Assembly: GCA_040902225.1 (NCBI GenBank)
Contig: JBBDXT010000004.1
Coordinates: 54,060 to 118,059, forward strand
From: Chloroflexota bacterium
GTDB taxonomy: Bacteria; Chloroflexota; Limnocylindria; QHBO01
DNA length: 64,000 bases
Reading direction: 5' to 3'
This document shows, in pieces, positions 4,244 to 8,823 of this stretch. How positions within the stretch are numbered: position 1 is the first letter of the stretch; every line of letters starts with the position of its first letter. The position numbers and the translations under genes are program-made. Under the pieces are notes generated by a model that saw nothing but the letters and a program-made list of their open reading frames with translations, was not told where the DNA came from and ran no database searches.

Positions 4244-5298
4244 TCAGGTCTGGATTGGCGGCCCGTACCAGACGCTCGCCGCGATGATCACGTAAAGGCC
4301 CAGAAGCGCGAGGCCCTCCAGCCATGTGCTCTCGCCGTCGAACACGATAAGCGCGGCGAGGATTGCCGTCAGCGCCACCGCCCCCAGCAGAAGCGGGCTG
4401 AGCACCAGGGTCATGGGGGTGCCGCCGACAAAGAGCGAGATGAGGACCAGCGCCGGAGTCAGCGCGATGGCCACCTGGAGGGCGCTGTTCAGGATCAGGG
4501 AGCTGGCCAGCTCGGTCTTGTTGCGCCATGCCATCTGCACCCCGACCACGTGCTCGACCGCGTTGCCGGCGATGGCCACGATCACCAGGCCGACGAACGC
4601 CTCCGAGATCCGCAGGTCGGCCATGGTCGGCCGCAGCGCATCGACGAACAGCTCCGAAGTCACCGCCGCGCCGATCGCCCCCAGCAGCAGCATCGCGACC
4701 GTCAGTCGCAGGGGCCACACCCGTTCGACCGACAGGTCCTCGACCTCGGCGCTCGCGCCAGGACCCCCACCCAGCGAGAAGGGGATCGACGCCGCGAAGA
4801 TGACCAGCAGCACGATCGACACGATCACGCTGAGGTCGACCGCGTGCCCGGCATTAGGGGCGCCGGGTGCAGTGGCCAGGGTCGGGATCGCCAGCGCCGC
4901 GACCGAGAGCAGGAGCAGGGTGGCCATGGACCGAACCGCGGGTCCGTGGAACTGCTGGGTGCCGTGCTTGAGTCCGCCCAGGAAGAAGGCCAGCCCAGCA
5001 CGAGCAACGCGTTGGCCAGGATCGACCCGATGAGGGCCGTCTGCACGACCACTACCAGGCCCGCCTGCAGGGCAAAGATCGAGATGAACAGCTCGGGCAG
5101 GTTGCCGAGCGCCGACTGCAGGATCCCCGTCGTGCGCGGACCGAACCGATGGCCGAGCTGCTCGGTCGCCTGGCCGATCAGGGTCGCCAGCCCGGCCAGC
5201 GCGACGGCGCTGGTCGCGAAGACGACGAGGTGGTCTGCGCCGATGGCGTTGAAGACCACGGCGGCCACGGTGGCAACGGCCGAGAGGGCGGCGGTCAC
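4244..5298 (-). pseudogene. cax: Calcium/proton antiporter (CaCA family), frameshifted
   Basis: Two overlapping frames together encode a complete Ca2+/H+ antiporter of about 350 residues. The 5' part (from GTG at 5298) carries alpha-1 repeat sequence, SALGNLPELFISIFALQAG followed by GSILANALLVLG. The 3' part carries the alpha-2 repeat, IAGNAVEHVVGVQMA. The protein continues as LAFFLGGLKHGTQQFHG in the other frame, and the break maps to about base 4993, where GGGCTGG reads as if one C is missing from GGGCCTGG. Everything else is intact, so either this is a recent single-base lesion or an assembly error. If functional it would export Ca2+ across the membrane using the proton gradient. Confidence 0.8.
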
Positions 5299-5404: not shown

Positions 5405-5830
5405 CTAGCTGATCGGTTGCACCCTGAAGGTGGGATGGTCTTGGGCGGCGGGTAGCTGCTCAAAGTCCCGACGGAACGGCTTGGGCGTCTTGGCCCGGAA
5501 GACCGCGATGACGCGCTCCCGCTCCGTGCGGTCGACCTCGACAGCCGTGAAGGGGGTGGTGCGCCCCTTGCGACGCAGCTCGCCGCGACCCGCGGCCCGG
5601 AGGTTGCGAACCCAGTTGCAGGCCCCGTATTGCGACAGGAGATACGTGGTCCCGTCGACCTGGATCGGGAAGAGCGCGACGCGCAACGGGCTGCCGCTGC
5701 GCCGGCCCGGCACCTCGAGAAGGACGGTGAAGCCGGTCCGCAGCCAGATCGGGCCGCCGATGCGGCGGACCAGAGCCAGCCCTCGGCTCGGAGTGATCAG
5801 TGCCTGGGCGGATTGCGGTCGCTGGTCCAT
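5405..5830 (-). CDS. DUF385/deazaflavin-dependent nitroreductase family protein
   Basis: A 141-residue protein of the DUF385 family (F420H2-dependent quinone/nitro reductases such as mycobacterial Ddn). The split beta-barrel core is recognisable from LLEVPGRRSGSPLRVALFPI, DGTTYLLSQYG and NWVRNLRAAG. The likely role is two-electron reduction of quinones or nitro compounds with reduced F420; the substrate is unknown. The ATG is preceded by a strong Shine-Dalgarno (AAGGAGGAGGG), unlike the many leaderless genes nearby. It could share a transcript with the downstream cax gene, about 106 bases away. Confidence 0.8.
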   Translation of the reverse strand: MDQRPQSAQALITPSRGLALVRRIGGPIWLRTGFTVLLEVPGRRSGSPLRVALFPIQVDGTTYLLSQYGACNWVRNLRAAGRGELRRKGRTTPFTAVEVDRTERERVIAVFRAKTPKPFRRDFEQLPAAQDHPTFRVQPIS

Positions 5831-5863: not shown

Positions 5864-8065
5864 CTATTCGGGCTCGACGTTTCCGGTGGTCCCGTCGACG
5901 GTGACCCGCATGCCCGTATGCAGCCGCGAGGTCGCGTCACCGCAGCCGACGACCGCCGGGATGCCGTACTCACGGGCGATGATCGAGGCGTGGGCCGCCG
6001 CGCTCCCCACGTCGGTCACGACCGCGGCCGCCCGTGTGAAGAGCGGCGTCCACGCCGGCGCGGTGAGCGGGGCCACGAGGATCTCGCCGGGCTGCAACTG
6101 GTCGAACTCGTCAGGTCCGCGGATCACTCGCACCGGCCCGCTCGCGCGACCAGGCGACGCCGGCACGCCGGAGACCAGGGCCTGATCCGATGGACGGGCG
6201 CCGATCAGCCCGGGGAAGCTGTCCCACACTCGCTGGATCATCGGGTTCACGCGGCCGACGAGAGGCGGCGGCACCAGCCGGGCCTGTTCCATACGCAACG
6301 ACCGCCGGCCGGGCACGTCGACGGTCGCCGGCAGCGGCGCCCCGTCGAGCGTCGCGAGGACCTCGGCCCGCGTCAGGAAGAAGACGTCGTCGGGGTCGGC
6401 AACCAGGCCGCGGTCGGCCAGCGCCCCGCCGATTCGAAGCACCGCTCGTCGCATGACCGGCCACGCGATCGTCAGCTCCTCGGTCTGCTCCTCGCGAATC
6501 GGGACGAGGTGCTGCGCGTCTGCCAGCAGCTGGCGGAACGCCCGGAGTCGCCGGGGCGACGAGGCGAGGGCCTCGAACGCCGCACGCTCGGCCGTCTCCC
6601 GCGCCTCGACCACCCGGCTGTGACTTTGGGCCGGGTTCGTCGCCGTCGCCTCGAGCGGCATGGGAGCGTGCCACCAGTCGAGAGACACGATGCCCTGGCG
6701 CTCCTGATCGGCCGGCGGTGCGAACCCTGCGAGGAGCGGCAGGTGGCCGCCGCCCAGCGAGGGAGCCAGATGGATCCGATAGAACCGGGCGAGGTTCATC
6801 TCCAGCTTGTACGCGGCACCGCTCAGTGCGGCGATCGAGGTGAAGTATTCGCCGGCGAGCTCGGCCAGCTCGTCAATCACTGACGGCAGGTCGGCGACAG
6901 GCAGGGTCTCGATGCGGCCTTCCGCGTCGGCGACTGATGCTCGGTAGCGCGGCTGCAGGTCGTCGCGCCACATCCGCTCGACGACGGGAAAGCTGTGGCG
7001 AACGGTAGGTGGGATGATCCCGGCGATGTAGCGTGGATGGCGAACGGCCTTCACCAGCATGCTGGGCAGGCTGCGGAGGAAGGCGCCTCCGGAGATGAAG
7101 TTGATCGAGTAGAAGTACCAGCCGTTGACCACGACGTGATACGGCCTCGGTGCGATCTGGCCGATCAACTCGCGGAAGTCGGCGTGCATCCGGTCCTCCA
7201 TCCGCGTCAGCAGCCAGGACTCGAAGAGGGGAGTGACCGGCTCGCCAATCCACTCGCCGAATCGGAGCATCCGGGTGTAGGCCCCGGGTGCTGGCGATTG
7301 CCACGACACGTCGGGCGGCAGCGCGGTCATCGGCCGGGCCTGGACGATCCAGAGCGCGCCCTCCGCGTCGATCGCCCACTCGATGTCCTGCGGGGTGCCA
7401 CGGGCATCCGCGATTCGTCGAGCCTCGGTCGCCACGCGCACGGCCCCTCGGCGATCGATGGCCTGCTCAGGCTGACGCCGGGGGGTGGCGACGGCTCCTC
7501 GCACGACCCACTCGTCACCTAGGGCGGCCCCGGACACCAGCCGATCCCCGATGCCCTGCACTGCGGTGACGACGGAGGCGTGCCGATCTCCGTTGATCGG
7601 ATCGGCGGTGAGGACCACGCCGGCCGCGGCGGGCGCAACCATCCGCTGGATGATCACGGCCATCCCCCTGCTGGTGGCGGGCTGGTACTCGGCAGCGCGC
7701 GAGATGTTGACGCTGGCCAGGCACCGCTCCGTGGCCGCCGGGATCTCGTCCGCCGTGACGTTCAGGACCGACTCGTACATGCCGGCATACGAGTGATCGG
7801 CGCCATCCTCGGAGATGGCGCTCGATCGGACGGCGAAGGGGCCGGCGCCCAGGTCGGGCGCGGCGTCGCGGAGCAGCGCCCAGCGGTCCTCCGCGGTCAT
7901 GTCGGCGGCCCTGGCGGTCAGCACCACCCCATCGGGGACGCGGACGCCAGCCGCCAGGAGCTCTCCGAGGTTGGCCGCCTTGCCGCCGACCTCGGCGACA
8001 TCGGCCATGCGCACGTCGGCCAGGCGCCGGATGGTTGCCGCGCGGATTGCTGTCGAGTTCATCAT
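5864..8065 (-). CDS. Rifampin phosphotransferase-like PEP/pyruvate-binding enzyme
   Basis: A 733-residue protein with an N-terminal ATP-grasp domain of the PPDK/PEP-synthase type (EVGGKAANLGELLAAGVRVPDG, residues about 15-280), a long helical middle region, and a C-terminal swivelling phosphohistidine domain ending in MRVTVDGTTGNVEPE. The catalytic histidine is about H692 in SAAAHASIIAREYGIPAVVG. This order (ATP, middle, His at the end) matches rifampin phosphotransferase, not PEP synthase, which puts the His domain in the middle and ends with a PEP-binding barrel. RPH enzymes phosphorylate an antibiotic with ATP, releasing AMP and phosphate. The start overlaps the end of the tetR gene by four bases (ATGA), so the two are co-transcribed. 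Substrate assignment is inference. Confidence 0.75.
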   Translation of the reverse strand: MMNSTAIRAATIRRLADVRMADVAEVGGKAANLGELLAAGVRVPDGVVLTARAADMTAEDRWALLRDAAPDLGAGPFAVRSSAISEDGADHSYAGMYESVLNVTADEIPAATERCLASVNISRAAEYQPATSRGMAVIIQRMVAPAAAGVVLTADPINGDRHASVVTAVQGIGDRLVSGAALGDEWVVRGAVATPRRQPEQAIDRRGAVRVATEARRIADARGTPQDIEWAIDAEGALWIVQARPMTALPPDVSWQSPAPGAYTRMLRFGEWIGEPVTPLFESWLLTRMEDRMHADFRELIGQIAPRPYHVVVNGWYFYSINFISGGAFLRSLPSMLVKAVRHPRYIAGIIPPTVRHSFPVVERMWRDDLQPRYRASVADAEGRIETLPVADLPSVIDELAELAGEYFTSIAALSGAAYKLEMNLARFYRIHLAPSLGGGHLPLLAGFAPPADQERQGIVSLDWWHAPMPLEATATNPAQSHSRVVEARETAERAAFEALASSPRRLRAFRQLLADAQHLVPIREEQTEELTIAWPVMRRAVLRIGGALADRGLVADPDDVFFLTRAEVLATLDGAPLPATVDVPGRRSLRMEQARLVPPPLVGRVNPMIQRVWDSFPGLIGARPSDQALVSGVPASPGRASGPVRVIRGPDEFDQLQPGEILVAPLTAPAWTPLFTRAAAVVTDVGSAAAHASIIAREYGIPAVVGCGDATSRLHTGMRVTVDGTTGNVEPE

Positions 8066-8670
8066 CCGTTCTCCGAAGCAGCCGAGGTGATGGCACGGAG
8101 GACCCAGTCCACGTCATCGGCCGCCTCGTCGACCGATGAGCCGAGCTGATCGCGCCACAGGCGCAGGGCGGACGACGCGGTGAGGATCACCAGCAGGCGT
8201 GCGATCCGATCCTGATTTACCTGCGAGGGCTTGGGCTCGATCGAATCCGCCACCCGACGGAACGCCGCGAGTCGACGCGGGATGTTGAGCCGCCGCACGT
8301 CGTCGGACGCTGGGCTGGCCATGGCCGCGCGTGCGAGGTCGCCAAGCGAGTCGGTGCGCTCGAAATAGGCGCGCAACCCCTGACGAAGCTCGTCCATCGA
8401 GCGGGGGATGACCTGTTCCTCCAGACCGGCACGGCGCATGGCGTGTGGGTAGACCGCCGCGAGGAGATCGTGCTTCGTTGCGAAATGACGGTAGACGGTC
8501 GGCACTGAGACGCCGGCCTCGCGCGCCACGCCGGGGACGGAGACGAATGCGAGGCCTCCGGCAATCACCCGGAGTGCGGCGTCAAGGATGCGTGCCCGCG
8601 TCTCCTCGGCCTGCTGGGCTCGGAGCTGGCTCCGGTAGGAGCGCACCTTCGTAGTAGCGACACGAGTCAT
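8062..8670 (-). CDS. TetR family transcriptional regulator
   Basis: A 202-residue regulator with a TetR helix-turn-helix near residues 20-65 (TRARILDAALRVIAGG, GVSVPTVYRHFATKHDLL) and a divergent C-terminal ligand domain. It is the first gene of a two-gene operon with the RPH-like enzyme. TATATT lies six bases before the ATG, and a perfect 14-bp inverted repeat covers both, so the protein most likely represses its own leaderless operon until an inducer binds. An alternative start is GTG at 8646, downstream of a TTGACA...TATGAC pair; either way the operator overlaps the promoter. Confidence 0.9.
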   Translation of the reverse strand: MTRVATTKVRSYRSQLRAQQAEETRARILDAALRVIAGGLAFVSVPGVAREAGVSVPTVYRHFATKHDLLAAVYPHAMRRAGLEEQVIPRSMDELRQGLRAYFERTDSLGDLARAAMASPASDDVRRLNIPRRLAAFRRVADSIEPKPSQVNQDRIARLLVILTASSALRLWRDQLGSSVDEAADDVDWVLRAITSAASENG

Positions 8671-8693
8671 ATTGTGAATATATGACTCGTGTC
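8659..8693. promoter_or_regulatory. TetR operator: perfect 14-bp inverted repeat
   Basis: gacacgagtcatat (8659-8672), a 7-base spacer, then its exact reverse complement (8680-8693). The site spans the TATATT hexamer (8677-8682) and start codon of the tetR gene on the minus strand. This is the expected size and placement for a TetR autoregulatory operator. Confidence 0.8.
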
Positions 8694-8747
8694 AACAGGC
8701 GAGGGTCACGACGATACGAGGGCGCTCTCAGCCCAAGAGTTGATGAT

Positions 8748-8823
8748 TGGAGCGGGAGACGAGGTTCGAACTCGCGACATCGACCTTGGAAGGGTCGCGC
8801 TCTGCCAACTGAGCTACTCCCGC
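8748..8823 (-). tRNA. tRNA-Gly (anticodon TCC)
   Basis: The minus strand folds as a cloverleaf. The acceptor stem is GCGGGAG/CTCCCGC, the D-loop is AGCTCAGTTGGCAGAGC, the anticodon loop is CTTCCAA with TCC in the centre, and the T-arm contains GTTCGAAC. The discriminator is T, and the CCA end is encoded in the DNA (8748-8750). The 5' end overlaps the last codons of the upstream HNH gene. Confidence 0.95.

Follow-up and report, generated by a model that had tools for sequence, protein, structure and literature searches.

A putatively autorepressed TetR operon for a small-molecule dikinase of rifampin phosphotransferase architecture in a soil-type Chloroflexota bacterium

Operon layout and the palindrome at the tetR start

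The analysed stretch of 64 kb (the window) comes from a soil-type Chloroflexota bacterium and carries on its minus strand a gene for a TetR/AcrR-type regulator (tetR; 8062–8670, 202 aa), followed by a gene for a small-molecule dikinase with the architecture of rifampin phosphotransferase (RPH) (5864–8065, 733 aa; PPDK_N and C-terminal PEP-utilizers in Pfam). The tetR product contains an N-terminal helix-turn-helix matching TetR_N (PF00440; E-value, 4.3e-13; 49 bits versus a cut-off of 24), in which the recognition region SVPTVYRHF is almost invariant among orthologues. The dikinase gene starts in a 4-nt ATGA overlap with tetR, with GGAG located upstream. Following the dikinase gene by 33 nt, and preceded by a strong Shine-Dalgarno sequence (AAGGAGGAGG), a third gene (5405–5830, minus strand, 141 aa; F420H2_quin_red in Pfam) encodes a member of the F420H2-dependent quinone reductase/deazaflavin nitroreductase family, and probably completes the operon; it was absent from the initial annotation. 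The tetR–enzyme synteny extends throughout the host family and into a second family of the same class, lying mostly within one class, and the reductase neighbour is kept only within the genus (L004/L027). A substrate of quinone or nitro type would be in keeping with an F420-type reductase in third position. Further along the minus strand, a calcium/proton exchanger gene (cax; 4244–5298) is split between two reading frames by a single frame change near 4993. Its orthologue beside this operon in L027 (381 aa, 84% identical) is uninterrupted; the split reflects either an error of assembly or recent pseudogene formation.

The initial annotation had described a 14-bp perfect inverted repeat over the −10 box and start codon of tetR, which is confirmed by the arms, the coordinates, and the uniqueness of the repeat. 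The putative TetR operator (8659–8693) is composed of two fully (100%) complementary arms of 14 nt (8659–8672 and 8680–8693) with a 7-nt spacer, reads GACACGAGTCATATATTCACAATATGACTCGTGTC on the minus strand, and includes the tetR ATG (8670–8668) within its right arm. In the 64-kb window no other exact inverted repeat reaches 14 nt (spacer of up to 20 nt), and a scan of the 2.28-Mb genome with up to three mismatches gave no second match to either the 35-bp operator or its 29-bp core. Lacking a second genomic copy, the palindrome would thus be a private site, and the regulator would serve only the tetR–dikinase operon.

The conserved core of the operator (8662–8670 and 8682–8690; arms of 9 nt with a spacer of 11 nt, at −20 to −12 and +1 to +9 of the start codon) was compared among 11 distinct orthologous promoters from six genera of the host class. 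The operator register is common to all 11 promoters, with ATG or GTG at +1. Watson–Crick pairing is found in 86 of the 99 core arm pairs, with eight double (compensatory) changes at three positions, namely G–C to T–A at −16/+5, A–T to G–C at −17/+6, and C–G to T–A at −19/+8; the second and third tetR codons accordingly change in step with the promoter arm. Slid (wrong) registers of the promoter alignment yield at most 39 pairs, and row-shuffling of the arms attained 86 pairs in 31 of 20,000 trials, a count to be taken as a guide and not as a probability because the promoter sequences are related. The conservation and the compensatory changes together argue that the palindrome is the TetR operator.

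Promoter and predicted leaderless start of tetR

A −10 box (TATATT; 8677–8682, minus strand) is located at −12 to −7 of the tetR ATG, between and partly inside the operator arms, and the 6-nt spacing of TATATT-N6-ATG/GTG is the same in all of the 11 distinct orthologous promoters. A TANNNT box near −12 has been published as a mark of leaderless genes in bacteria (PMC3160421), and the tetR promoter matches it exactly. Over 458 kb of contig C4, TANNNT at −12 precedes 21 ATG and 13 GTG candidate starts, as compared with roughly one at the majority of other offsets and none in the out-of-frame control. For the ATG starts of this contig, the TANNNT peak takes in −13 to −15 as well as −12. Leaderless mRNAs appear to be common in the host lineage, and leaderless transcription of tetR, as had been suggested in the initial annotation, is predicted with good support from the invariant spacing and from the genome-wide peak of TANNNT at −12 of start codons.

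A further motif, TTGACA (8690–8695, minus strand; −25 to −20), is kept in 10 of the 11 relatives. It was considered and rejected as a −35 box, its partners at 17–18 nt (ATATGA/TATGAC and their equivalents) being neither −10-like nor conserved; with its spacing wrong for a −35 box, TTGACA is probably outer operator sequence. The L157 promoter lacks TTGACA and keeps the palindrome, which also counted against the −35 reading. A sigma-70 scan near tetR identified no promoter and no terminator. Upstream, a tRNA-Gly(TCC) gene (8748–8823, minus strand) ends ~55 nt before the operator, and no rho-independent terminator was recognised in the interval between it and tetR, so that leader-bearing read-through transcripts into tetR are possible.

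It had also been proposed that the bound repressor would block both transcription and the start codon. The first part, autoregulation through an operator over the −10 box and the ATG, is supported, but the second adds nothing at the RNA level, because the repressor binds DNA; the overlap of operator and start codon would simply follow from leaderless transcription. The same design is seen elsewhere on contig C4, near 19,620, where the promoter of a leaderless gene (L137; ArsR plus SRPBCC-like fusion, named from its sequence appearance) has a palindrome, ATATGTGACT-N4-AGTCACATAT, that overlaps its −10 box TATAGT.

Domain structure of the dikinase and comparison with rifampin phosphotransferase

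The overall architecture of the dikinase follows the RPH domain order of ATP-grasp, middle, and C-terminal His domains, as noted at the outset and now borne out by the domain scan and fold matches. The AlphaFold model of the whole enzyme (mean pLDDT, 89.7) has RPH-Lm (PDB 5FBS/5HV1) as its top PDB matches (E-value, 4.9e-36). In the compact ATP-grasp domain (7322–8032, minus strand; residues ~12–248), Lys29, Arg80, Glu229, Gln242, and Arg244 align with Lys22, Arg117, Glu297, Gln309, and Arg311 of RPH-Lm, respectively, with Ser99 in place of Thr136. The middle (substrate) domain (6182–7312, minus strand; residues 252–628) contains Arg524–Glu525 (6491–6496), the equivalent of the catalytic Arg666–Glu667 of RPH-Lm, whose catalytic residue roles are taken from PMC4844700. 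The C-terminal swivel phosphohistidine domain (5876–6172, minus strand) retains the catalytic His692 (5990–5992), corresponding to His825 of RPH-Lm. With the three-domain swivel architecture and the ATP-grasp and His motifs all present, the enzyme belongs to the small-molecule dikinases of the RPH superfamily in the broad sense.

Modelling of the middle domain against RPH had been recommended in the initial annotation, and its fold does match the rifampin-binding domain. Modelled alone, it gave significant PDB matches to RPH-Lm only (E-value, 7e-7; TM-score, 0.60; 13% identity), and a profile comparison agreed (E-value, 8e-17; 15% identity). The modelled fold and these low identities (~13–15%) mark the middle domain as remotely homologous to the rifampin-binding domain, sharing its fold but probably not its specificity.

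In the comparisons with NCBIfam models, the scores to RPH, PEP synthase, PigC, and RedH were all ~220–250 bits and far under the cut-offs, and the best-scoring stretches were the ATP-grasp and swivel parts. PEP synthase (PpsA), the other activity raised at the outset, was rejected: the ATP-grasp domain and the swivel His are common to both enzymes, but the His domain of the dikinase is C-terminal and is followed by no pyruvate/PEP-binding domain (Pfam), and the score to TIGR01418 is 235 bits versus a cut-off of 739.75. The enzyme might instead be a ligase or perform other chemistry, like PigC and RedH, and not be a phosphotransferase that releases a phospho-compound. The PigC and RedH models score level with RPH (221–238 bits), and the prodigiosin enzymes have the same architecture; these scores are, however, far under the cut-offs of 1300–1350, and prodigiosin genes were not noticed near the operon, making such a chemistry very unlikely.

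The membership in RPH itself was likewise rejected, on the family score and the tree position. The dikinase scores 229 bits to the RPH model (NF041857) versus the cut-off of 999, with the C-terminal part matching best and the rifampin domain unmatched. Of 400 Chloroflexota genomes sampled, 41 contain true RPHs above this cut-off (1000–1600 bits), and none of the 41 belongs to the host family. A tree built from 60 sequences places the window dikinase within a 20-member clade (support, 0.994) and the six RPHs within another (support, 0.998). Among the rifampin contacts compared (Gln336, Gln337, Lys670, and Met673; the hydrophobic cradle is not reliably mappable), Lys670 and Met673 are not kept, being replaced by Thr528 and Leu531, and Gln336/Gln337 align with Gly/Glu in a region of uncertain alignment. 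The dikinase is also shorter than RPH-Lm (733 versus 867 residues) with its compact ATP-grasp domain, and has a dedicated TetR upstream. For RPH genes already known, control lies with a rifampin-associated element or with convergent promoters (PMC12802891). An approximate pattern of this element has no match in the window. Despite the domain order, the overall fold, and the catalytic Arg–Glu and His shared with RPH, we therefore find it highly improbable that the enzyme is a genuine rifampin phosphotransferase inactivating rifamycins under a rifamycin-sensing TetR; neither the resistance gene proposed in the initial annotation nor a specificity for rifamycins is supported.

Regulators of the dikinase clade and proposed function

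Besides the host family, the clade of the window dikinase takes in further genomes of the host class, a Ktedonobacterales, several Actinomycetota, and a plasmid copy from Rubrobacter tropicus. In 13 of the 18 clade loci whose upstream DNA is readable, the gene immediately upstream, on the same strand, encodes a TetR, an arrangement seen for 1 of 65 other members of the superfamily and for none of eight true RPHs; the search profile was built from the clade TetRs and may under-detect generic TetRs elsewhere, although it matched the TetR beside L057 strongly. Clade members without TetR are L037, L038, and L161, and at L180, where the profile score is weak, the regulator is a MerR. PadR genes adjoin L039 and L040. 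The TetRs of L036, L162–L164, and L184 are unrelated to the window TetR outside the DNA-binding part, indicating that the pairing of TetR and dikinase recurs, and L162/L164 have a palindrome of their own (CGGTACGGTAC-a-GTACCGTACCG) that abuts the ATG and lies over a TACAGT box. The recurrence of different ligand-sensing regulators beside the clade supports an inducible enzyme acting on a small molecule.

Several related loci have features of their own. The Rubrobacter tropicus pair (L184:7170–10169; plasmid NZ_CP045120.1, 85008–88007, from a cultured bacterium) consists of a TetR and a clade enzyme 42% identical to that of the window, and adjoins an arsenic-resistance region and a Tn3 transposase. 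At L169 (3248–6540), the clade enzyme (47% identical) has a 4-nt overlap with an O-methyltransferase gene, which may hint at a hydroxylated aromatic substrate. Two natural versions of the enzyme in genus g34 (L165:396–1898 and L166:6228–7763) have no ATP-grasp domain, and could therefore not work alone; at L165 the tetR gene and the ATGA overlap are retained. They may borrow phosphate from another ATP-grasp protein, or their function may differ. A search of their genomes for a stand-alone ATP-grasp partner found no dedicated one, because the ATP-grasp genes there adjoin swivel-domain partners of their own. In Nocardia (L043–L046), open frames of ~1970 aa include a relative of the dikinase and are possibly large multi-domain fusions.

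Relatives with known activity bear on the substrate. HpeHI is a two-component RPH homologue that phosphorylates hydroxyphenylethanones (PMC12167813). HpeHI, CreHI, and PpsAB resemble the window dikinase in their three functional domains and swivel mechanism, and act on small hydroxylated aromatics; they consist of two proteins with a separate ATP-grasp subunit, whereas the window dikinase is one chain (the g34 copies excepted). It is possible, though on balance rather unlikely, that the dikinase works in catabolism as a one-piece counterpart of phenol-type kinases such as HpeHI, CreHI, or phenylphosphate synthase, trapping and priming an aromatic compound for growth, with TetR as the sensor of a catabolite. 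The activity of HpeHI, the appearance of HpeI among the top fold matches of the ATP-grasp part, and the clade neighbours (PadR, a vanillate-demethylase-type oxygenase, or an O-methyltransferase) are consistent with such a role, but the homologues are in two pieces, the genome is small (2.3 Mb), and no aromatic ring-cleavage cluster was seen beside the window operon. Detoxification or antibiotic resistance, in which TetR, the kinase, and the F420-dependent reductase would inactivate a toxic hydroxylated or quinone natural product, is a serious possibility, though somewhat short of evenly balanced. AcrR-type ligand-responsive repressors, MerR, and PadR recur near the dikinase relatives, the third gene encodes a quinone/nitro reductase of F420 type, and the unique operator implies a regulator dedicated to the operon; against this, the linkage of the reductase is genus-limited, and neither an efflux pump nor a biosynthetic cluster was seen beside the operon.

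Taken together, we consider it likely that the locus is a three-gene autorepressed operon, with a ligand-released TetR regulating a small-molecule dikinase whose predicted role is the phosphorylation of a hydroxylated compound, perhaps a phenolic or an antibiotic. Judging from the sequence comparisons, TetR binding, repression, the exact transcription start, and the dikinase activity may be pictured as follows. In the absence of ligand, TetR dimers on the palindrome over the −10 box and the first tetR codons would stop RNA polymerase. The 5′ end of the tetR mRNA would lie at or beside the A of the ATG, so that tetR would be translated without a Shine-Dalgarno sequence, and the dikinase would be translated by coupling through ATGA and from its own GGAG. 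On entering the cell, a small molecule would bind TetR and open the operon. The β-phosphate of ATP would then be transferred to His692 at the ATP-grasp domain, and the swivel domain would swing to the middle domain, where the phosphate would pass to a substrate hydroxyl with the aid of Arg524–Glu525. We infer that the inducer and the substrate are the same or related molecules (a xenobiotic, a phenolic, or an antibiotic). A known operon of similar layout is AcuR–AcuI–DddL of Rhodobacter sphaeroides, with a TetR autorepressor, a measured leaderless mRNA from the AUG, and an operator over the promoter (PMC3017554). The window operon, as predicted, has in common with it an autorepressor as the first gene, an inverted-repeat operator over the promoter, and downstream Shine-Dalgarno sites; the AcuR operon differs in having another TetR, another operator (TAATAGAC-n6-GTCTATTA), and enzymes of acrylate/DMSP metabolism.

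The operator, lying partly in coding sequence with promoter and codons changing together, makes a clean comparative case. The RPH-type dikinases have been described as a large group, still unexplored, whose substrates are unknown (PMC4844700), and the dedicated ligand-sensing repressor with its mapped putative operator would offer a direct route to the substrate of the dikinase, the repressor serving as a sensor of the inducer. We tentatively suggest, with appreciably less than even confidence, that the clade represents a distinct set of TetR-linked one-piece small-molecule dikinases, found in several Chloroflexota groups and on a Rubrobacter plasmid, that phosphorylate toxic or signalling compounds, and whose repressors may report the class of compound.
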